NCBI GenBank assembly: GCA_028753945.1
Contig: JAPNXP010000008.1
Coordinates: forward strand, 1,178,001-1,242,000
Direction of reading: 5' to 3'
Length of the DNA: 64,000 nucleotides
Origin: Hexactinellida sp. DTS-2022
Taxonomy: Eukaryota; Porifera; Hexactinellida
The notes beneath the pieces are model-generated. The model had not been told where the DNA came from. It ran no database searches and saw only the letters and a list, made by a program, of their open reading frames with translations. A program made the position numbers and the translations under genes. This document shows, in pieces, positions 5,021 to 63,952 of this stretch; the first letter of the stretch is position 1, and each line of letters opens with the position of its first letter.

Positions 5021-5725
5021 ATGACGAATTCATTATTTTCAATAATTCTTTTTTTCTCTTTACTTGCAACTCTTGTTTGCATATTGGAAGGTCAGGAACT
5101 ATGCTCTCTTCAGGAAAACTGTGACAATTGTCTATCGGCTGGTATTAATTGTTTTTGGTGCGCTGATGTTATTTTAAATAACAACACAAGTAATCGTTGT
5201 TTCCAGAGGAATGTACAAAATAGTTGCATTAATATCCAGGACATACAGGGAAACTTAACTGTTTTACAGGATAATGCATTTTCTGAACAGGTTCAGGTAC
5301 GTCCCCAAAAGGTTCGTGTACGACTTAGGCCTGGAGAAATTATACATTTCAATGCAACTGTTAAGCCAGCACCTAATTTCCCTCTCGATTTATATTATTT
5401 GATGGATCTCTCATACAGTATGAGGGATGATTTAGTTAATCTCAGGCGTTTGAGTACGGAAATTGCTAGCCGTATCAACAACATATCTAGCGATTCACAG
5501 CTGGGATTTGGGAGCTTTGTGGACAAGCCTGTATCACCATTTATTCGAACAGATTCGTATTATTTGATATATCCATGTGGGAGTCCTCAATGTGTAGCTG
5601 CCTATTCTTTTCAGCATGTACTCAATCTCACAAAGGATGCTGACACATTTAGAACATTAATCGATGCTGCTCAAATTTCAGGAAATCTAGATATACCTGA
5701 GGGTGGTATGGATGCACTATTACAA
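5021..5725 (+). CDS. Integrin beta subunit, first coding exon
   Basis: Integrin beta pairs with an alpha subunit at the plasma membrane to bind matrix ligands. This exon encodes 235 residues: a hydrophobic signal peptide (1 to ~24), a cysteine-rich PSI domain (Cys 28, 34, 37, 44, 47, 60, 69), the hybrid segment with VRPQKVRVRLRPGE (93-106), then the beta-I domain. The MIDAS is DLSYS (Asp129, Ser131, Ser133), followed by Asp136 and Asp137 of the adjacent site. GFGSFVDKPVSP (162-173), the short Cys186-Cys191 loop and NLDIPEGG (222-229) are all family landmarks. An in-frame TAA at 4994 supports the ATG at 5021. The exon ends ...DALLQ before the donor GTAAGG at 5726, a position where integrin beta genes commonly carry an intron, and continues in phase at 60852. 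The frame is intact. Confidence 0.95.
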
Positions 5726-6103
5726 GTAAGGATTTTCGATTATTAATTGTTTGCACCAGTCATCATCGTATTGTGTACATAATCGCTATAGTTTATAATA
5801 AAGTATAGCTAAAGATAAATATTAACACTTTATTTGCGTCCGTTGGTGTTCTTATAACACACTCCACGGAAACAAGCAGATACACAATCTTTTTAATTTT
5901 CAATTTTTTGAAAATTAAAATAAACAGTTATAATCACACGAATTCACCACAGTGGGAAATTCTCTGGTTATTTTTTTATTGCTTAATATATGAGGTCTAA
6001 AAGTTTTGACATAATTTTTTAAATGCCCCTGTATTGGACAAGTCAATATAATAAGATTTTGGATAATGCTGTTTAAATCACTAGTATATTATATGATTCT
6101 TCA

Positions 6104-29536: not shown

Positions 29537-30110
29537 TCAATATAAAGATGGCAGATTATTCCAAATATCCAACCAAGAGACGACGTTGTTTAAAAATTGT
29601 AAACGAAAATCTCTTGGGTAAATTGGAGCTGAATATTCATCCTTAAAACGTATATCTTTTCCGACCCAGTTGACATTGAATAGTTTCCACACCTGAATGA
29701 TTAATTCAAGGAATTCTACTGTTTGATTTGTGTGTATGATGTCTTTTTCCATTTTCCACGATAATAAGCCGGCATATGTTGTCTCATGGAAAATTTTCAA
29801 AGCAAAACTAAGATTTTGTCGTTCTAACCTTGAGGGCCAACACGCTTTCGCTGTTAATCTTGGTGCTCGCTTCAAGACATTACATTTATCAGAATTGAAT
29901 AAATTACGGATATCCTGAAAGGGTGCATAACATAGTTCAGGATAAAGAGATTTAGAGGTAAAATGAGTGGTCGAAATGTTGGTTCTTGAAATGGAGACGT
30001 AAAAACTTTTGTTTACGTTACTAATATTTTGTTGTACACATAATTTGCATTCAGCAAATTTCGGATTAATAAATGTATTGTCTAAATTTTTTAGATTTAA
30101 CCAATTATTC
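29537..30110 (-). pseudogene. P-element / THAP9-type transposase fragment
   Basis: Reading on - from 30110, an open stretch includes CKLCVQQNIS and YPELCYAPFQDIRNLF. 29875-29537 then gives RLTAKACWPSRLERQNLSFA, TVEFLELIIQVWKLFNV and RDFRLQFLNNVVSWLDIW. These match the pattern of the GTP-binding insertion region of P/THAP9-type transposases, recognised by eye. The THAP finger and catalytic segments are absent. The 5' end abuts the CACAGTG end of the RAG-like element at 30111. Confidence 0.65.
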
Positions 30111-30146
30111 CACAGTGGCTTAAAATCGCAGTTGGTAGGGAATAGA
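30111..30146 (+). repeat. RAG-like element A, left end (long spacer)
   Basis: Heptamer CACAGTG, then 19 bases, then AGGGAATAGA. The same arrangement closes element B at 36789-36824 on the other strand. Confidence 0.9.
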
Positions 30147-30600
30147 TATCTGTGTACACTTTAGCCTATTATAATGTATTAATTGCATATGGGTTATCGA
30201 TGTTTAAAAAATGTTTGGTCATTTCAAAATTTATTTACACCTCATACTTTGTCTGTTATGACGTCATGATGATGTTACTTATTTTTTTGAAATTCTGAAA
30301 TCCGCTATATCTTTGGAGTTAGCGTTGTACTATGAATTAATTACATATGGGTTATCGGTGCCTATGCATCTTTTGACATATAAAAAAATTATTTATGGCT
30401 CCAGATGTATTAGTTATGACGTCATGCAACCGTGTGTTTTTTTAATAATTTCTGGTAGTAATTAATTTAACCCCTTAAATTAATATTTTGCAATTATATG
30501 TCGACTGTACCTAGGAATTGCTTAGAAAATTAATTAACTTATTGCCTTAATTCATTCAAAATAGGTTTATTAATTATATAATACACTATTTACAATAATT

Positions 30601-32721
30601 TCAATATTTGAATTTTGAATCTTCTTCCTGCAGCACTTTGCTATACTTTTTATGTCCGATAGTATTACATTTTTCACACACTAGCTTTGAACGGAATCTG
30701 ATTAATATAGGGTCGCTGTCAGATAGTAATCTAACAAAAATGTCAGATATATTTGTTTCAAAGCTGATCTTTCTTGACAAATTCTCTCGATACCTACGAA
30801 TTAGTTTATTACACGATTCAGATCCTTCTTCAGAAATATTTTTCAACCCAAAACTTGAATTGGACTCTCTAATGAGTTCTTCAGAATGAGCTAAGACCTT
30901 GTGAAGAGTCGATGTGATACTTGCCCATGGAAAATTGTCCAGAATCATGATATATGTATCTTTACATATATTACCAAGAAGATCCGTTTTTACTTTCTGG
31001 CTGGAATTGATTATTCGTAAGATAGCCGATATATTTGTGTGTATCTGTAAAGTGAATCCCTGTGTTGAACATCAACAAGTGATAAAACGCATTTAATATA
31101 GTTGGATTCTGAGAAAGCTTGTCGAGCAACGTTTCTTGTAGAACTTGTTCCCCCCCTGGAATCCGGCCGATCAATTCTAAGCCCAGTTTTCTCTTCGATA
31201 AGATTCCGAACGAATTGCATGGATGTTTTGATTTGTAGACTGGTTGGGCCCCACTTTTTCTTCCCGATATTTAAATGATAGACCAAGAGATTAAACCATC
31301 GAAACAAACAAGTGTAGGAATGAAGGGGCGACGCAGGATTTATATCAATGGTGGAAATCGGTATATGAGTTAGATTATAACGTTGATTAGATGGAAGTGA
31401 TAGAAAATGTTCAATATCTTCGAGCTCTCCAAACAATTCGATCGCATCTGATATGTGCCTGTTTATGGGAAATCCCTCTAATATTAAGTCGCGGTCTGTG
31501 AGATCATTGTGAGTTGCTGTACACATTTGGCAGCTTGCCCCTCCGGCGCCAGAGAGAATCCCTGCCATTTTTCCATCAATCAGAGAACGAACGATATTAA
31601 TATGTACAAGTCCTCCAGGTGATGCAATTCCTTCTTTTTTCATGAGATCTGTATCAGGGTTGATAAGATCACACATTAACTTAAGAATGTTTTGTTCAGA
31701 CTCTTTGGTAGCACAAAGAAACACAGGTCTTTGTGAAAATGGAGAATTTGGAGAAGTTGTTTGCCAAATTACATTGTTCTCAACTTTTGTCACTGATAGT
31801 GGTTTTAAGCAAAAAAGAACATAATTCTTAGTTTCTCTATTTGTCTTGGATTGATTGTAGATAACATGACTGCCAGAACCATCAAGGCCATCTGCAAATC
31901 GAAACGTAAGAGGATATTCTTCAGGAAGTACAGGCTGTACAGTTGAAAGTATTCTTTCTAACGTGTGTCTGACTATATCAATATAAGGGATAAAAATACC
32001 GATTGGTGCCTGTGGATCTGGATAAAGTTGAATAAATGGTCGTAGGACGATAACATTCCTTTCTTCTACTATTCTCTGATAAGCAGGAAATTCAATACCA
32101 CTTGGAATTAAAAGCTGACGTAAGCTCGTATATTTCCTTTTACCAATTTCCAAAAAATCAAGAAGAAACAACGACTTAGCAATCGGAACTTTTTTCGTTA
32201 TCGCATCACTAAATCTCCAGCATAGGCAATCTTTTTGGAAATCTGAGCTAACTGACGGTTATCGTCTTGATTGGATATCAATTGTAAAGCAATAGCTGCG
32301 ATTGAAATTTCTGACATGTCTTCAATGTCTGCAATTTCTTTAATGCACTCCAGTAATTTAGAGAGGCGTGATCTCTGATGTTTCAAAGAAACACAATCGA
32401 GACTCTTTCTATGGATAGGTCTACTTTCATCAGGCACAGAGGACGTAGTACAGTCAACTGGAGTTGATAGACGACTCTTTTTTAAGTCATAATTAAAATC
32501 GATTTGAGAATTCCACCATTCTCCATCCAATTCGTCAACTGACTTCCTTCCTTTCCTCACATTATTACTAACCTCCATAGCAATGATTGCAAGACACTAT
32601 TATTTGTTCCAACAGACTCTTCAATTTCAATCATTGCTGCTTGAATATTGAATTCATGTGACTTCAAAATCTTTGCCAATTCAAGTCTGGTCTTGGGGAT
32701 ATTCCGATCACTAGCTGCCAT
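30601..32721 (-). pseudogene. RAG1/Transib-type DDE transposase, degenerate
   Basis: It starts at the ATG complementary to 32719-32721 (MAASDRNIPKTRLELAKIL). 32171-31011 is a long open stretch. RFADGLDGSGSH fits the first catalytic Asp. SLIDGKMAGILSGAGGASC then CQMCTATH fits the second Asp and the zinc CxxC. TIDINPASPLHS and GLRIDRPDSRGGTSSTRN are further Transib/RAG1 landmarks. 30948-30601 holds HKVLAHSEELI and EEGSESCNKLIRRYRENLSR, closely parallel to the RAG1 region KTLAHVPEII ... SEGNESGNKLFRRFR with the catalytic Glu. A C-terminal CEKCNTIGHKK follows. About four frameshifts are visible (near 32575, near 32215, and two between 31170 and 30950), some by comparison with copy B. Family assignment is by recognition, not a search. 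RAG1L versus Transib is undecided. Confidence 0.85.
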
Positions 32722-32791
32722 TTGAGATAAATACACACAAAAAATGAATGAAAATTGACGCGAATTATGGTCACTACTATCTTAGACAATA

Positions 32792-33365
32792 CACTGACCG
32801 GCCAAAAGTATTTGAACAACAGGGATTGTATTCCAAACATAATATGCTTTAAATAGTTTGTTGACGGGTGTTTAAACTACTCTAAAGTGACTATAAATAT
32901 ATTGCTATGATTGTAAACTTCATAACATAGTTATCAAAAGTCAATTTTATACAATATCCATGAAGTGGCATAAGTGTCCCTGCTACTTGCCACTTGTGGC
33001 ACAAGTGGCACAAGTGGCACAAATGGGAAAACGGGTGTAACTCAGTGGGAAATTATCGTAATGATTAGAAATTGTGCACCCAGAGTAATTAGACTATGTA
33101 GTATTCAAATCTGAATACAGAATTTGAATATTCTAATTGCCTCATAATGATCAGAAATTATTTATTTAATTAGCAAATTAAATAGTTAATGAGTTTAACA
33201 CCTCCATAAAAATTTAAATAAAAATACTTTACCATTTTATTTTACTTAAGATATCATTTTATGTCAACATCCATTTTGAAGCATCTACTAATGTTATTAT
33301 ACTGCTAGAAGCTTGAATATATGAATTCCTAATATTGGTGTTGAATTACTTTTGGCCGGTCAGTG
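32792..33365. mobile_element. TA-flanked MITE inserted in RAG-like element A
   Basis: Inverted ends CACTGACCGGCCAAAAGTA lie between TA dinucleotides at 32790-32791 and 33366-33367. Element B lacks it at the corresponding place (around 35665), which gives an empty site. Ends of the CACTGACCGGCCAAAAGT type with a TA target suggest Tc1/mariner. Confidence 0.9.
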
Positions 33366-33995
33366 TATATAGTATATCACATATGAAACAGAAGTATCAA
33401 ATAACTTGGTGGTTACAGTGAATATTGAATTGCACAGTTACCAAAACGAGACTTGGAATCTTGCATAGTAACCGATTGATCACATTGGAATGTAGTATAC
33501 CTATATTTTTATTTCCGGAGCGAACCGGAGGTTGTGACTTTGTATACTAACTCTACATACATTAAATGATTTTCTAAAAGTTATTCAATTTGCATTTCTT
33601 TGCATAATGGTGTTTCCGCACACTTCAAATATCTAGATTTGTTACAATTTGTTTAATTTTACAGGTGATATTAAAAAGAATATTTTCTTGGAAAAATATT
33701 TAAGCTACACTACTATGATTAAAAAATACAATTTCAGAATACTTAAATTACTAATCTAAATGTAGTACACACAATAAATTGCCATAGTAAAATACTTATA
33801 TTTACTCTAAGTAGAATACCTTATTTCAAATTCCAACAAAACCGCAAATGGAACTAATTTACTGCAACGTTTGAAGGCAATTTTTATATACTTGTAGGCT
33901 TTAGATAAGCTGGAAATTTGAAATTTAGAACACTATGGCAATCAAATAACATTAAGCAAGCTGGAAAACACAATAATACAGACCTCAATAATTGG

Positions 33996-34021
33996 TCTAT
34001 TCCCTGCCATAAGCCACTGTG
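33996..34021 (-). repeat. RAG-like element A, right end (short spacer)
   Basis: Read on -, heptamer CACAGTG, then 9 bases, then AGGGAATAGA. The same arrangement opens element B at 35018-35043. Confidence 0.9.
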
Positions 34022-35017
34022 GAGTGCGCGAATTATGTGCGATTAAGTGACTTTTCAGGGTTCTCGAAATGTGACAATGACGTCATAACTTGTCGAGGTG
34101 TGAGAAATTTTGAGTGGAAACCTCAACTTGTTGGCGGGTGCCAAAAGTTAACCCTATATGCCAAAAATCACATTTGGAAACCGGAAATCTAATGCTTTTT
34201 GAATTTTAAAATTGGAGCCTCTCAGACTCAAGTTAAAAACCCCGAGATCGCGACGTTCCAGTCCTTATCTAAAGGAGTCTATGACTCTAACACAAAAATC
34301 AATACATTACTTTCTAAGCACTTAACACCATCAGCATTGTACTCATCTCTTAACACCTTTACCCAAGTAATAAAAAGACTCATATCATCTCCACTTAAAA
34401 ACACATATTTCTTACCAAACATTTGATACAAGAAACTACATTCAAGCTGTACTTTAGACAACTACAAACCCACTAAAGGAGTACATTCCACAAAACTTTT
34501 ACAATAAGTACTTACTATCGTGGGAATAAAATCAAAACATTCATCAAAATAGCAAGTTTCCTCGAATTGCAAAAAAACAGAAATATTTTGTGGACAAGTT
34601 AATCCATAAAACATAGCACCGTCTACCCATAGCTGACATTCAGTTGTATTGAACATGTGATATACATCGTGACCATCACTATTTAGTGAACTAATATTTG
34701 CAGTCTGAGAATCTCTCTTCAACCGGTCATACATAGCTTGGTCGGACGCAGAAGATGCCCACACAATAAGAAGTTTATCGTCAACTCAATCAAATTCAAG
34801 TTTTCTTAAATCTAAGTTATCGAGTGCCGAAAATTAATCAGAACACGCAGCTACACTTAAACTTACTTCCTTAAGAATAATGGAAGTTACCAATGATGCT
34901 CTCCTCTGAATTGTTAAGTTTGTAAGGCTACAACTCACGTGAAATTGTTCCTCCGAACTAGGGGGACTTACTAATGGTTTAATTTCGCTCAAAGCATCCC
35001 TCACCAGGGTTCTTTTG

Positions 35018-36824
35018 CACAGTGGCTTATGGCAGGGAATAGACCAATTATTGAGGTCTGTATTATTGTGTTTTCCAGCTTGTTTATTGTTATTTGATTG
35101 CCATAGTGTTCTAAATTTCAAATTTCCAGCTTATCTAAAGCCTACAAGTATATAAAAATTGCCTTCGAACGTTGGAGTAATTTAGTTCCATTTGCGGTTT
35201 TGTTGGAATTTGAAATAAGGTATTCTACTTAGAGTCAATATAATTATGTTAATATGGCAATTTTTTGTGTGTACTAAATTTAGATTAGTAATATAAGTAT
35301 TCTGAAACTGTATTTTTTAATCATAGTAGTGTAGCTTAAATATTTTTCCAAGAAATATTATTTTTAATATCACCTGTAAAATTAAACAAATTGTAACAAA
35401 TCTAGATATTTGAAGTGTGCGGAAACACCATTATGCAAAGAAATGCAAATTGAATAACTTTCAGAAAATCAATTAATGTATGTAGAGTTAGTATACAAAG
35501 TCACAACCTCCGGTTCGCTCCGGAAATAAAAATATATACTACATTCCAATGTGAGCATTCGGTTACTATGCAAGATTCCAAGTCTCAATTTGGTAACTGC
35601 AATTCAATATCCATTGTAACCACCAAGTTATTTGATTCTGCTGTTTCATATGTGATATATATTTTGTTTAAGATAGTAGTGACCATAATTCGCGTCAATT
35701 TTCATTCATTTTTTTGTGTATTTATCTCAAATGGCAGCTAGTGATCAGAATATCCCCAAGACCAGACTTGATTTGGCAAAGATTTTGAAGTCGCATGAAT
35801 TCAATATTCAAGCAGCATTGACTGAAATTGAAGAGTCTGTTGGAATAAATAATAGTGCCTTGCAATCATTGCTATGGAGGGTTCGTAATAATGTGAGGAA
35901 AGGAAGGAAGTCAGTTGACGAATTGGATGGAGAATGGTGGAATTCTCAAATCGATTTTAATTATGGACTTTAAAAAGAGTCGTCTATCAACTCCAGCTGA
36001 CTTTACTACGTCCTCTGTGCCTGATGAAAGTAGACCTATCCATAGAAAGAGTCTCGATAGTGTTTATTTGAAACATCAGAGATCACGCCTCTCTAAATTA
36101 CTGGAGTGCATTAAAGAAATTTCAGAAATTGAAGACATGTCAGAAATTTCAATTGCAGCTATTTCTTTACAATTGGTATCCAATCAAGACGATAACCGTC
36201 AGTTAGCTCAGATTTCCAAAAAGATTGCCTATGCTGGAGATTTTAGTGATGCGATAACACGAAAAAAGTTCCGATTGATAAGTAGTTGTTTCTTCTTGAT
36301 TATTTGGAAATTGGTAAAAGAAAATATACGAGCTTACGTCAGCTGTAAATAGTGTATTATATAATTAATAAACCTATTTTGAATGAATTAAGGCAATAAG
36401 TAAATTAATTTTCTAAGCAATTCCTAGGTACAGTCGACACATAATTGCAAAATATTAATTTAAGGGGTTAAATTAATTAATACCAGAAATTAAAAAAAAA
36501 CACGGTTGTATGACGTCATAACTAATACATCTGGAGCCATAAATAATTTTTTTATATGTCAAAAGATGCATAGGCATCGATAACCCATATGTAATTAATT
36601 CATAGTACAACGCAAACTCGAAAGATATAGCGGATTTCAGAATTTCAAAAAAATAAGTAACATCATCATGACGTCATAACAGACAAAGTATGAGGTGTAA
36701 ATAAATTTTGATATGACCAAACATTTTCTAAACATCGATAACCCATATGTAATTAATACATTATAATAGGCTAAAGTGCACACAGATATCTATTCCCTAC
36801 CAACTGCGATTTTAAGCCACTGTG
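35018..36824. mobile_element. RAG1/Transib-superfamily element, short deleted copy (B)
   Basis: 1807 bp, bounded by CACAGTG on both sides, with a perfect 5-bp target duplication TTTTG at 35013-35017 and 36825-36829. Five base pairs is the duplication size of Transib and RAG-type transposition. The sequence matches both outer parts of element A but lacks the transposase core. It sits inside the older MULE/OTU gene copy; taking out the element and one TTTTG gives an uninterrupted frame there (LRKNSHNK followed by RTLVRDALSEIK). Confidence 0.95.
35731..36350 (+). pseudogene. N-terminal remnant of the RAG1/Transib-type transposase (copy B)
   Basis: It starts MAASDQNIPKTRLDLAKILK and includes SLLWRVRNNVRKGRKSVDEL, EWWNSQIDFNY, SRPIHRKSLDS and QRSRLSKLLECIKEI. 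About 85% or more identical by eye to the N-terminus in copy A. The N-terminal region is lysine/arginine-rich and has no RING-like cysteines, unlike the RAG1 non-core region. A frame change lies near 35970, and the core domain is deleted beyond 36350. Confidence 0.85.
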
Positions 36825-37300
36825 TTTTGTTATGAGAGTTCTTTCTCAATTTCAAATACAAGCTGTGTCTCTTGACAGGCTTGTTACACGGGTAAACCTT
36901 CTTACAGATCGAACCCCAAATAGAACTAGGCGAACTGTAGCTGACAGACAGGGACTGTGTCAATTGTTCAAATGTTAGTGTTGTGGAGAGGAGTGCGTCG
37001 ATAATAGAGTTTATCTCTGCTGGTAGTAGTTCTAAAAAATAACAATAAAGGCTATCCTTATTCAAAACGTATATCAATCAAATTACCTTGTTTGTGACGA
37101 GTATCTTGAGTTGGGGTGATAGGCCCCGAATTGATCTCGATGCCGCCAATGACGAGTAGAATAGCTATTATACAAGCAATAAGAGCCGAGATCTGTGAAA
37201 CAGATGAATCAATTTGGTCTGTTGTTGATATATTATGGTTATTGCATTTGCGGCTACAATGTAAACCAATGAGAGCACGCCACAATTCAATAGAAATCAT

Positions 37301-48780: not shown

Positions 48781-51700
48781 CACAATTCGTAGACATAATA
48801 ACAAACAGGTCGAAATCATTCCCCTTGTTGAAAAAAGACCTCTCTAATAGTCATTCACTTCCGAATTCTGTTTGGGGCAAGCTTTCAAAAGAATTATACG
48901 GTCGTAACAGACCTTCGTTGAGACTTAAATTGTATCTTAAATGGTTTAAAACTCATACGGCATTCAAACTATTGTGGAGCAAACTTATTCAGTCAATGCA
49001 GAAACAACATTTTGTATAAGTTTGAGTTTGAATTTGAATTTACTATCAAATGAGATCAGAACTTCCCTCGTCACCTCAGTTGTGATCAGATCAATTTGTG
49101 AAAAAATGATAGGGAAGGACATCACTGGTGAACTATCCGCACGTGAGTTAATTTGGGAGTCAATTGAGCTTGATTTAAATGATACTAACTTGCTAATCGT
49201 TTGCTCCTCCGCAGCATCTGAATTCACCATATACAATAATCTAATAGAAGAATTTAAATCCAATGTTCTAGAATCAGAAGATTGTATGGGGAAAAGGTTA
49301 TTTCATACTTTCCTTAATTGGGAATCAAAATTATGGCTCGATGGCTGCAAATATTTTGATTGTAATGCAGCTCGAGTTATTCCTGGTTTTTTACAATTTG
49401 TAGAATTAAGTCACATTGACGAATGTGAGAAATTTGGATCTACATTAATATCAAAGGTCAATGAGAAAATAATTGGGAGTAGTCCATTGCTGATTTTGTG
49501 GATTGTGTCCACATTGCAGGATTCTGATTATCACAGTGTTAGACTAATTTAAAATCTTTTGGATCAAAACTATATTCTTTTGAGTAGTGACATACTCACG
49601 AATTTTGTTAATTGGTTCCATAAATTGAAAAGCGAATCAAATAAAGGACTAAGAGATTTGAGAATACTATATTCAAATTATGTATGTAAATTTCAAAATT
49701 TTACAAGAGATTCATCAGCTGATGCTGTTGATCAATTACTAGCACTATCTAAATACGCAATTGATGATAAATCATATGACAAAGCCATTGATGAATGCTC
49801 CTCTGAAACTGATGTGCTCCCTAATTGTGATCTGGAATATGGTGAGTTTTATCTGGAATTAGATGAATGGCACAATTTGAGTTCTCCAGATTCAGCTGGT
49901 AGTCTAAGGTTAAATAGAAATTGGACCAATTTATTCGCAAAGAAGTTGTCTGAGTTAAATCCGAAATGTGTCCTGAAATTTAAAAATTATTGGATAAAGA
50001 AAGACAATAGCCGAAAATCACATTCCCCATATTTTCAAGGATGGGCAGTTTGCAAATTAACGAACTGTTTATCTTTCATTTTTCCTTTGAGAAAAAGATT
50101 GACCCTAAAGAAATAGACACGGTTGCTGTACAATTTAAGTGCGAAGGAACTTTTTCACTAGAACACTTTGACGGTAGTACTACCCATTCTCGCAATCTAT
50201 CAGGCATTGAAAGGGAAAAAATGGGGAACGTTTTAGTTCAAAGTCCTATTAATAACATATTTTATAAACAGTTCAATAGCACTAACAATAAAGGGTTGCC
50301 TCATGGAAATTTACTAATATACAATCTCAAGCATGTTTACGACGAGTTAAATCAGAGTTTAAATCCAAATGTAGATTTTCTAATGATTATATGGAAGATA
50401 TCTTAGCAACTCAACAATATTTCCGTTCGCTGTTAGCGGAAGGCCCTGTTTTCGGGTATATTCAATATGTAGCCCAGCAGCCATTTATTATACATCTTTA
50501 TTCAAAAAAGCAGATAGAATTATTTAAAATGTTCAAGAAATCTAACATCGTATTGAATTTGGATGCAACCGGTTCGCTCATTAGTAAGCCCTCTACTTGT
50601 ACTAATAAGATTTATTACTATGCACTCACTTTACAGCATCCAGATGTTTTCATTAGTCCAATGCCTGTTGCTGAAATGATAAGCAGTGATCATGGCACTG
50701 CAGAAAATACTCACTTTTTAAACAAATGGGTTTTAACTAGTAAATTAGTTTTAAATAGAGAGTTATATGTTTCCCAAATTGAAATGGATTATAGCTGGGT
50801 GATGATGCATAGTGTCTGCTTAGCATTTAATAGAATTAACATAGTTAGTTATTTGGATCATTGCTGGGAATTCGTTAATCTCAATTCAACAAAACTAAAT
50901 TTTCCAACTGTTCTCCATCTCTGCTCTGCACATATTATGCATGGGTTAAGTTATAAATTGGAGAAAAATTATAAAATACAAAAACACTTGAAACAATTAA
51001 TATTACATGCAATTGGCACAATTTTGAAGAGTAGCAGAATTCTAGAAATAAACCTTATATTCACATCGTTGTGTTATTTATTGAGCAGTTGAATTCATGT
51101 CTTCTACCGTTAATCGTAGTTTGCTAGATTTGGAAGTATTAGTTAAAGGAGAAATGGAGATAAATGATTTTCAGCAAGAACAAATAGATAAAGAATCAAA
51201 ATTTATGGAAAATGGTCTGACTTATCGAAAACAATCTCCATTTGGCAGACATTTTGATACATTATATAACAATTGCTTAGATAAAATTCAATCTAAAGAT
51301 GCATCGCGTTTAAACAAAATAGTTAATTTATCGTATTTTCCATATATTCTTGAATATTTATTGACCTATTATTTTCCGATACTTCCCTTTTGGACTGGAA
51401 TCATACTAAGCACAGTAAGAGTAAGTGAAAAAACGACTGATAGCAACGCAGTAGTAGAAAATTGGTTCAAAATTGTTAAACATTCAATATTTAAATCTGA
51501 AACTAATATAAGACCTGGTGATTTCATTCGTACAATATATTCTCACATAGACGATAGGATGGCAGCCTTTCAATTTGCATTTCAACCTTTGGCTCAGAAA
51601 ATGTTCAAACAAAAAAATTTGAAACGTGAATTAGTTAATGAGGAACATTGTAAAGAGGAATGGGCAAAGAGGAAAAAGGTAAAAACTAGTTACATTAGCC

Positions 51701-52515
51701 CACTTCCTAGTAAGATTGAAAAAGTATTTAGTCAATTTAAAGATTTTGATAGGAATGCCGCTTCCTCAAAAACTAAAAAGATTAAAATTTTAGCTGATAG
51801 CCTTGAAGGTTGTAAAACTTCCCATTTAACAATAACAACACATGCCACCTCAGAACAACAATTAACAATTCCTGCAGAAAATGTTGAAATCATGACCGAT
51901 TTAGATATTTTAGCATTAGGGAGCGTCGAATTTACTGCCTGAATTCAAAAATCTTTGTCTCTTGGGCCAAATACAAATTTTCGATGAATTAGGATTTACT
52001 AAAATCAATCCTGTAATTTGCATAAGCAATAGTAAATATAAGCATAAATTAAATCAATTAAAGCCTTCACGAATGTTTCCCATTCCAAAAGATGGGAATT
52101 GTTTATTTACGACTCTCACTTATTTGATTACAGGTAGTATTGATAATTATCATAAAATGCGATTAACTATAACTGATAATATGATGGGTAGATTTCATGA
52201 CGTATGTCACAAATTTATTAGAAACAAATTTCCGAGGTCGGTTATTAATTATCGTAATACAAAAGATTACCTAATCAAATCAAATATGCGCAATAATAAG
52301 ACTTGGGGTACAGACTTGGAGTTATTCACTGTGGCCATGCTTTTTAAAACTGATATATGGGTGCTACACAAGTGACCTGGGCAATAAATGGATGGTCTTT
52401 TCAGGAAACGGGGCCAGTTTGGATGAAATAACAAAGCCAGCTAATCAGGCTGGATCTTTATACATTAGACATAGTAGCAACCATTACGAACCTATTTTTG
52501 AATTATATCAATGCT
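48781..52515 (+). pseudogene. MULE-like transposase with C-terminal OTU cysteine protease
   Basis: Coding pieces in order: 48825-49552 (SVWGKLSKELYG; LWLDGCKYFD; FLQFVELSHIDECE), 49559-50406, 50391-51092, 51097-51942, 51962-52515. The third carries VLNLDATGSLISKP, PVAEMISSDHGTAENT, QIEMDYSWVMM and CSAHIMHG, a plausible DDE pattern with the C-x2-H seen in MULE and hAT cores. The fourth has SNAVVENWFKIVKHSIF and ends in basic sequence. The last is an OTU domain: PKDGNCLFTTLTYL (catalytic Asp and Cys), TWGTDLELFTVAMLF, then SNHYEPIF with the catalytic His. About five frame changes or stops interrupt it (for example at 49552, 50116, 51092, 51942 and 52375), so it looks inactive but fairly young. 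The OTU call is strong; the transposase superfamily rests mainly on the 9-bp duplication. Confidence 0.8.
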
Positions 52516-61518: not shown

Positions 61519-63952
61519 ATGGATCAAACTGAATACCAACGAATCGTAAATTTCCTAAGGAAGGGCGATTTCCCAGCGGAATTTTCCCGCCAAGCTAAAT
61601 GGAATTTCAAAGAGAAAGTGTCGAAATATTTCATTTCAGAATCTGACAAACTTTACAAGGTGATTAATTATATTACATTTGTATAATTTATTGTATAATT
61701 CTTTATAATTAAATTAACTATTAATTAGAAAATCGTGATGAATTGTGAGGAGAAAGACATCGAAGTTGCATGTCGGGCTGATTTTCAGGATATTATGGAA
61801 AGGTTCCATGATCGTTTGGCCCATCCTGGAATAAATAGCTCTATCCTTTCTATTCGACAGCGATATTACTGGCCAGCGATGTATACGCAGATTACTGATT
61901 ATGTGAGTTCAGCATCTTATATTTCTATAATAAAATTGAATTTTACAATACTATAATTTTATGTATTAGGTAAAAACGTGCGATATATGTCAGCGAACAG
62001 CCGCGTTACCACCTCAACCACAGAAAGCTTTACAACCGATTCCCCCGCCAGACAGACCGTGGAAACATATTGGAATGGATCTAATTTGTGATCTTCCACT
62101 TAGCCCAGAAGGTTATAAACACATATTGGTTACTGTCTGCTATTTGAGCAAATATGTGGTAGTCAGACCTCTAAAGTCCAAAACTTCCTCAGATGTTGTT
62201 GAAAACCTGAAAGACATTTATCTCGATATTGGTCTTCCAGATATCATCCAACATGACCAGGGCAAAGAGTTCACTAGCAATGTAAGATTATGCTTTATTA
62301 ATCAATTAAAATAATTTTAATAAAATAGTCAATACAGTATAGTATGTATCAATGAAAATATTTACTTGCAGTAATTTGCTAAAGGAGAATACTATATTCT
62401 GCGAAATAGAACATGCTTATGATTAATCATTTCTTTGTAGCTATTTCAAGAATGTCATCAAAAATTTGCAATTGACAACCGCAGCACTCGAGCGTATCAC
62501 CCGATGGCCAATGGCTTAGTCGAAGCTCATAACAAAATCCTCAAAACGTAAGTATTTCCTAACGATGTTATATTCTAATTATGAATTGATTTGACTAACA
62601 ATATCTAGTAAGTTGAGCAAGATGGCTACTCAAACTGGAGATCATTGGTCAGTGCTACTCAAGTCTGCAGTCTTGTGTATGAACTCGACAGTAAAGAAGT
62701 CTCACTCTTATACTCCTTTCCAAGTGATGTGGGGTCGCGAATCGAGATACGGAGACCTAGTACCAGCTCTTAACAACATGCAGGTGTCTCATGAAGAAGA
62801 CTTTGAACTTGAACAAGCTATATATTCTGAATTTTTGCTTGCTGAGAAAGATGGCGAAGTGGATGATGTGTTTTGTTCTCTTCCTAGCAACGACATAGAA
62901 TCTATAAAACTCATCGATGAATCGAGAGAATGCACTCGCAGTTTCGCATCTAACTCAATAAGGTCTGAACAACTCAAGCAAAAAAGACAATATGATAAAA
63001 AAGTTACCCAAAAGAAGTTTGTTATTTTAATTAATAAGTATAAAATAAGAGTACAGTATAATTAAATTGAATTTAGACATGAAATCAAGGAAGGTGACAA
63101 AATCATTTTCACCAACATGCCAAAGTTAAAAAAGATGCCGAAAACTCAAGGACAGGACAAATATCTCGGTCCCTTCACAACATCTAGGATTACTGATAGC
63201 CACGCAGTGATTTCTAAAGAGGAGTTAGGATCCAAAAAAGACAAGAAAGTACCTCTTCACATTGCACGCCCTTACCATCAGCGCTGTAGTAAATCCAGCA
63301 AGCCGATATCCAGGAAGAGAAAGGGTGATGATACTTCGGAATGTGAGAGCAAACGAAACAAAGCTTCAATCGTATGTCTTATTTTGATTAGATAATTTAC
63401 TGACTTGCAAGCTTTGAACTTTTATTATCCAATTTAGACTCCCCAAGTAGAGTTTGGATTTTCTAATGAAACTATTCATCGTCACTTATCTCAATTCAAG
63501 GTAAACACGAACTTGTGCCATTTTTCAATTGTTGACATGATTAGAATATCAAAGTTTAATTAACTATCACAATGATGATGAATACTGCACAAATTTAATA
63601 TTTTCTTTCTTGTATGCAATTGTAATAAATATTACTCACTAGATTATCCTTCAAGAAAACGTGAGGAAGGGTACTTTCATTACTCCTTTGCATGAAGATC
63701 TACACTCAAAATTAAATAGATTTCACCTTTTTGTTCCTAATATCTTCATTTTTCAATTTATGAAAGATTCGAACGAAAATCAAATGGTAAATAAGTCGTA
63801 TAACTTACTATATACAAACTTGGACTTTACTTAAGTTTTATTTACAGAAGCAAGAGATTAGGGAGACTGTACTTTCCTGGACTACAGAAATATATCCGAA
63901 TTTTGGGGATACTTTAGCCGCTAAATATGCCGAAAAAGTGTTGTATGGAATT
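61519..63952 (+). CDS. GIN1/Ginger-like integrase gene, nine exons, open to window end
   Basis: Exons: 61519-61659, 61729-61902, 61970-62281, 62441-62547, 62609-63016, 63077-63371, 63438-63500, 63643-63786, 63848-63952. All have GT/AG borders, and the reading frame stays open for 583 codons. Introns are 60-159 bp. Residues: N-terminal helix region as in GIN1 (EYQRIVNFLRKGDFP, 6-20), HHCC zinc site (His74, His79, Cys109, Cys112), integrase core with Asp142 (GMDLIC), Asp201 (QHDQGKEF) and Glu237 (NGLVEAHN), a canonical D,D-35-E spacing, GPY-like LGPF (411-414), and a basic NLS-like stretch near 455-475. The C-terminal extension beyond 480 is unrecognised and continues past the window. There is no reverse transcriptase or LTR. 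It lies in the following integrin intron, same strand. Either a young Ginger-type DNA transposon or a domesticated integrase gene. Confidence 0.88.

Follow-up and report, generated by a model that had tools for sequence, protein, structure and literature searches.

A stretch of 64,000 nucleotides from the glass sponge Hexactinellida sp. DTS-2022 (contig JAPNXP010000008.1, positions 1,178,001 to 1,242,000; here called the window) carries two transposon copies, A and B, which very probably represent a large, recently active and RAG2-less family of Subgroup I-type Transib transposons, with a proposed mechanism that pairs short- with long-spacer ends and leaves hairpins on the flanking DNA. The homology and predicted fold of the transposase, the ends, the union of a short with a long end in every pair counted, the 5-bp target-site duplications and the presence of near-identical copies at different sites are established here. 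An earlier note on this DNA had called A and B RAG1/Transib-type elements, and the kind of element, its ends and the 5-bp duplications of B and of most complete copies bear this out.

Elements A and B and their family

The features of the two elements are given below. The reference full-length relative, L033, lies elsewhere in the genome; it is 3326 bp long, has an intact frame of 717 amino acids (aa) and is flanked by the duplication CTGTT.

30111-34021, gene on the minus strand: element A, a Transib-type transposon copy of 3911 bp including a nested 580-bp element, with exact CACAGTGGCTTA ends
30111-30145, plus strand: long-spacer end of A, on the 3' side of the gene, with CACAGTG and the second block AGGGAATAG at 30137-30145
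33997-34021, minus strand: short-spacer end of A, on the 5' side of the gene, with the heptamer and AGGGAATAG ten bases nearer
30573-32721, minus strand: broken transposase gene of A (tblastn of the natural L033 protein; Pfam and PDB matches)
30601-30948, minus strand: open frame with a RAG1-like C-terminal core and the catalytic-glutamate stretch SEEGSESCNK (PF12940; HzTransib)
31011-32171, minus strand: open frame with an RNase H-like catalytic core containing DGLDGSG, SLIDGKM and CQMC (HzTransib; search of its own genome)
32789-33368, unstranded: nested 580-bp element with 33-bp inverted ends in the 5' leader of A, absent from B
35013-35017, plus strand: left copy of the target-site duplication TTTTG of B (flank reading)
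35018-36824, plus strand: element B, a non-autonomous internal-deletion derivative of 1807 bp (match to parts of L033)
35018-35042, plus strand: short-spacer end of B (end scan, copy L003)
36790-36824, minus strand: long-spacer end of B (end scan, copy L003)
36825-36829, plus strand: right copy of the target-site duplication TTTTG of B (flank reading)

All four termini match CACAGTGGCTTA exactly (30111-30122 and 35018-35029 on the plus strand, 34010-34021 and 36813-36824 on the minus strand), in agreement with the earlier claim that A and B end in exact CACAGTG, and the perfect TTTTG duplication ascribed to B is also present. The window holds no further exact copy of CACAGTGGCTTA; with up to two mismatches it gives six matches against a shuffle mean of 3.2, and 6 of 100 shuffles gave as many. 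The two elements of the earlier note are both real, but they are copies of one family. They lie as inverted copies of one element, with terminal arms of 336 and 338 bp that are 97% and 96% alike. This relation, the internal deletion of B and the nested element in A had been missed. Apart from the 580-bp insertion, A is 95-97% identical to L033 over its full length. Its gene has suffered at least four frame changes (pieces aligned to the L033 protein by tblastn: 32721-32569, 32572-32111, 32213-31044, 31050-30637 and 30647-30573) and retains the motif of each of the three DDE acidic residues. B comprises only bases 1-1326 and 2845-3326 of L033, keeping about the first 203 codons and losing the catalytic core. 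A is probably a dead copy, and B a passenger copy moved in trans.

The two flanks of A share AATTAT (30100-30110 and 34022-34036), which stands two bases away from the element on the left and nine on the right and may be chance. The nested element has ACACTGACCGGCCAAAAGTA near the tips of its 33-bp inverted ends and presumably is a non-autonomous element of the Tc1/mariner type. Matches to it were found at all 40 places scored among 1378 candidates in the genome, A's own included, with 76-100% identity and mostly at full length.

The genome searched comprises 112.4 Mb in 18 contigs, the window being on contig 17. With the 386-aa middle piece of the A transposase as query, at least 110 transposase places were found; the number is a lower bound, 107 having been scored of 714 candidates, and a few elements give two places. 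An open frame of at least 700 aa without a stop is present at 13 of the 110, and of 30 loci retrieved, 10 contain an ATG-started frame of 708-743 aa; many other copies are broken. Identity to the query falls from 100% to 38%, so that the matches form a radiation of numerous families. Kapitonov and Koonin (2015, PMC4411706, in excerpt) give one, or a few at most, as the typical copy number of autonomous Transibs in an animal genome.

The earlier note had named the termini and duplication length of other copies as a check, and the copies agree with A and B. Both family ends were seen at 18 of 44 scanned loci, always one short and one long, with perfect 5-bp duplications at 15 of the 18. The scan tolerated up to 8 mismatches over 40 bases at each end, and 17 of the 18 copies had none and one had two. 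B-type derivatives make up 14 of the 18; their 91 pairwise identities are 99.06-100%, and one identical pair lies at different sites (TAACA and AGTAG). Such near-identity indicates that a copy lacking a catalytic core multiplied in a recent burst, and it was probably moved by a partner's protein. From these sequences, the Transib DNA transposon family to which A and B belong is probably large and was active recently.

The family has relatives in another sponge. In two protein searches, which scored 8000 candidates sharing most words, every relative that bore an organism label (a minority of the 58 and 80 proteins listed) came from Oopsacas minuta, and the UniRef name of some of these begins 'V(D)J recombination-activating protei...'. 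Bacterial genomes and IMG/VR viral contigs gave 86 and 179 pattern-matching stretches and no confirmed member, a result with little bearing on distant relatives.

The transposase and the paired ends

The earlier note had drawn a parallel of the A protein to RAG1 and Transib, and profile and sequence searches uphold it. The 30601-30948 piece matches the Pfam RAG1 profile PF12940 (E 2.2e-6, 26.5 bits, cut-off 25), HzTransib (1.5e-12), amphioxus RAG1L (2.9e-6) and vertebrate RAG1 (2.8e-4 and weaker). The 31011-32171 piece matches HzTransib (2.5e-8) and RAG1L (0.0023) but no Pfam profile. In all ten intact proteins of the genome DGLDGSG, the xDxKM motif and SEExxExxNK are present. Judged by its sequence, the transposase of about 720 residues is a RAG1-core enzyme. 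The predicted structure of the family transposase contains a nonamer-binding-like fold. The distance from CxxC to the SPLH histidine is 66-67 residues in all ten proteins; measured in the same way, amphioxus RAG1L has 61 and HzTransib 31. This stretch, which is linked to RAG2 binding, has five short helices in the structure model. A C-terminal zinc knuckle of the CTT1 (CCGHC) type, C-x2-C-x3-GH-x3..6-C, is found in eight of the ten and is absent from L050 and L060. The relatives P0025, P0026, P0028 and P0033 also are without the knuckle. The second block differs at the ends of L050 and L060 (GGTCGATTAG and TTCGAATAGG). That the knuckle is linked to the type of second block is a lead only, since L038 has the knuckle together with still another block.

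Each end consists of CACAGTG, the V(D)J heptamer consensus (PMC8289069, in excerpt), and a second block at one of two distances. In the A/B family the first base of AGGGAATAG is position 17 at one end and position 27 at the other. Genome-wide, CACAGTGG-N3..24-GGRARTAG gave 817 matches and the reversed pattern none. N is 18-20 in 439 of these, 11-17 in nine, and 3-10 or 21-24 in 369; among the 100 matches listed, N, the distance in bp from CACAGTGG to the second block, is 8-10 in 42 and 18-20 in 58. Read from the ends themselves, the second block is GGRARTAG-like. All 28 convergent neighbours within 5 kb among these 100 are one short and one long end, offset by 9 or 10. Three family-specific patterns gave 91, 85 and 161 matches (100 listed for the last), that is 276 listed ends, with N 11-17 in only four (two with N 11 were counted as short). 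Here, too, 63 of 63 convergent pairs are short with long, at offsets of 8-10; 44 of them lie outside C1-C3 and are new. Counting the 28 and the 44, all 72 convergent pairs join a short to a long end. When the three middle bases of the heptamer were left free, CACAGTG appeared in 92 of the 100 matches listed of 332. Over ten families the best-block offset is 9 or 10 in seven. In 11 of 11 loci with clear ends and strand (L033, L035, L036, L039, L045, L048, L050, L052, L055, L057 and L058) the gene has its 5' side towards the short end and its 3' side towards the long end. The vertebrate nonamer ACAAAAACC differs from the second block, and the sponge ends do not have that nonamer with 12/23 spacers. 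It is the strict short- and long-spacer pairing, beyond the heptamer alone, that most strongly parallels V(D)J signals; we infer that the enzyme may enforce this pairing.

Duplications were read at loci chosen by CACAGTGG alone and in a larger junction set. Among the former, ten pairs could be read and the duplication is perfect in eight of them, the exceptions being L045 and L055; L046 is cut by the end of the locus, and L039, which was counted, belongs to the A/B family. The junction set comprises 87 pairs (86 distinct), from 26 of the 28 neighbour pairs, 17 pairs assembled from separate listings of short and of long ends, and the 44 new pairs, with 12 bases read outside each end; the two neighbour pairs left out are family copies already scanned. 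An exact 5-bp duplication is present at 54 of the 86 sites, and at 15 the duplication is displaced by 1-3 bases at one end, as compared to 24 exact and 72 displaced (shifts of 1-4) in 7482 wrong pairings. The 54 exact duplications lean to C-A-N-T-G, with C in 28, A in 25, T in 24 and G in 20 at positions 1, 2, 4 and 5. CATG or GCATGC runs occur at the junctions of L085, L211, L197, L161 and L081 (26-base flanks) and may be target preference, repeats or extended additions.

The mechanism proposed for the family would begin with recognition of two unlike ends, each with CACAGTG and a second block, the block being 9-10 bp, or about one DNA turn, further in at one end. The transposase would pair the short with the long end and cut at the outer edge of CAC, the flanking DNA would be left with a hairpin, and the element would be inserted elsewhere with a 5-bp duplication.

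Alternative readings

The features found are those of the Transib superfamily, namely, a RAG1-core-like DDE transposase, a 5-bp duplication and heptamer-like ends starting with CAC, and also those of its Subgroup I, namely, an asymmetric end pair, a CTT1-type tail and a long CxxC-SPLH stretch. The family therefore fits Transib Subgroup I of Tao 2022 (PMC9435367), a group already known. The long CxxC-SPLH stretch of 66-67 residues, the CCGHC-like knuckle (present in eight of the ten proteins), the nonamer-binding fold and the unequal ends are shared with RAG1L, and could also be expected if the elements were RAG1L-RAG2L (RAGL) transposons after loss of RAG2 and thus true RAG-side relatives. We consider such an origin improbable. 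Subgroup I Transibs retain the same RAG1L-shared features (PMC9435367), and HzTransib is the best match of the sponge transposases both in sequence and in predicted structure. In a tree, the sponge clade joins HzTransib against RAG1L and RAG1 at 100/100, with one reference each and very long branches. Seven complete elements of 3010-3343 bp have one frame of 2.1-2.2 kb each and no other ATG frame above 97 aa, leaving no room for RAG2; the Pfam RAG2 profile had no match in the sponge genome, and likewise none in any control genome. Because of the HzTransib match, the tree with its few references and the lack of room for RAG2, the elements look Transib-side. The earlier note's RAG-family transposon outside vertebrates thus stands as a RAG1/Transib type and is moved to the Transib side. 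Still more remote is the idea that the host has domesticated the transposase gene and that the ends are incidental. Several long intact open frames would suit it, but it is contradicted by diverged full-length copies that have ends and 5-bp duplications at their borders, by the many broken copies and by the recent burst of non-autonomous ones.

The bases at the displaced junctions suggest that hairpins were opened and re-joined to the same element. P nucleotides are described in an excerpt of PMC3528771 as one to three bp that inversely repeat germline sequence. In 11 of the 15 displaced sites, where 1.8 would be expected, the extra bases repeat the neighbouring flank as its reverse complement, and 8 of 9 dinucleotide additions are palindromic, compared to 2 of 19 in wrong pairings. 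Such re-closed junctions are termed 'open-and-shut' joints. A hairpin-forming complex of HzTransib is named in the title of PDB 6pqx. Given palindromy to the local flank and an element still in place, the simplest reading would be a cut, a hairpin opened off centre and re-joining of the same ends. Small indels or alignment accidents might instead account for these bases; we regard this as possible but the less probable account. The events are only 15, of which four do not fit, and some flanks are repetitive (CATG and AT runs). However, displacement is seen at 15 of 86 real sites against 72 of 7482 wrong pairings, and the P-like excess of the first 43 pairs (7 of 10, expected 1.4) recurs in the 44 later pairs (4 of 5, expected 0.45). 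Of the imperfect family copies outside the junction set, L006 has a P-like addition (TA after GAATA), and L002 and L016 match at 4 of 5 bases.

Several observations weigh against the Transib reading with its paired ends and hairpinned flanks. The 5-bp flanks of A itself (TATTC on the left, GAGTG on the right) do not match, and A carries a broken gene. The tree has only three references (one Transib, one RAG1L and one RAG1) on very long branches, and the sponge clade itself is supported at only 81/93. Two of seven intact proteins score under Pfam's RAG1 cut-off, and the two proteins without the knuckle also count here. The best-block offset is 14 in one of the ten families (L052), and in two (L037 and L038) no offset was resolved. 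At 7 of the 86 junctions only four of five duplication bases match, and 10 have no duplication. The P-like set is small, with its four misfits, and descent alone could preserve strict short and long pairing.

Setting and significance

Elsewhere in the window lies an integrin-beta frame, at 5021-5743, which over 90% of its length has 71% identity to a protein of Oopsacas minuta, with three further entries at 77-87%; the next organism-labelled match is 37% over 99%, and the rest are at most 49% over about half the query. A retroelement Integrase core domain (rve, E 2.1e-13) is at 628-1782 on the plus strand, and a second integrase-like frame was seen by eye at 62613-63065. The frames at 48974-51942 (plus) and 34465-34764 (minus) had no Pfam match. 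By eye, the stretch separating A from B looks similar to the 48974-49552 frame, both perhaps being pieces of another repeat family. An Rfam scan of the window gave no match.

The sponge family is closest to the Subgroup I Transibs, with which, by the main text of PMC9435367, it shares the RAG1-core transposase, the CTT1-type tail, the alpha11-alpha12 region, the nonamer-binding-like domain, asymmetric end pairs and the lack of RAG2. It differs by a glass-sponge host group that is probably new, by high copy number and, perhaps, by an exact CACAGTG that comes with two spacer classes in many families. HzTransib (PDB 6pqn, 6pqx), presumably of Subgroup II, has a CxxC-to-histidine distance of 31 rather than 66-67 residues and symmetric ends as described in an excerpt of PMC8289069. 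ProtoRAG and other RAGL elements, of amphioxus and others, have a RAG1-like protein, 5-bp duplications and unequal two-block ends (Martin 2020, PMC7204232, in excerpt) but carry RAG2L, and the ProtoRAG heptamer is CACTATG with spacers of 27/31 (PMC8289069, same excerpt). Vertebrate RAG1-RAG2 with 12/23 recombination signal sequences is alike in the fold of the catalytic core, CACAGTG, short and long pairing about one turn apart and P-like bases; it is no transposon and acts with RAG2. No report of these hexactinellid elements was found in literature covered mostly without subscription journals, preprints and supplements. 'Transib' and 'RAG' do not occur in the available parts of the main text of the glass-sponge genome papers PMC10280926 and PMC10282587, and the three mentions of Transib in the available part of PMC13337447 do not concern sponges.

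What stands out is the glass-sponge setting, the numbers, an exact recombination-signal heptamer with two spacer classes, and, in an element without RAG2, junctions that resemble traces of hairpins. The sponge ends add a further RAG2-free comparison with an exact heptamer and a natural test case for the origin of the two-length layout. Work on the 12/23 rule and on hairpin opening with P nucleotides mostly uses RAG1-RAG2, where regulation is superimposed; the hundreds of natural ends, intact frames and recent copies offer a test of whether short and long pairing belongs to a RAG1-type enzyme without RAG2. The P-like junctions, if upheld, would preserve in genomic DNA the mark of hairpins formed in the sequence beside a transposon. 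It could equally prove right or wrong that the scheme of V(D)J recombination at the DNA level is already at work in a RAG2-free sponge transposase, with CACAGTG, obligate short and long pairing one turn apart, and hairpinned flanks that leave P nucleotides. If it is true, the 12/23 rule and P-nucleotide chemistry would predate RAG2 and adaptive immunity.

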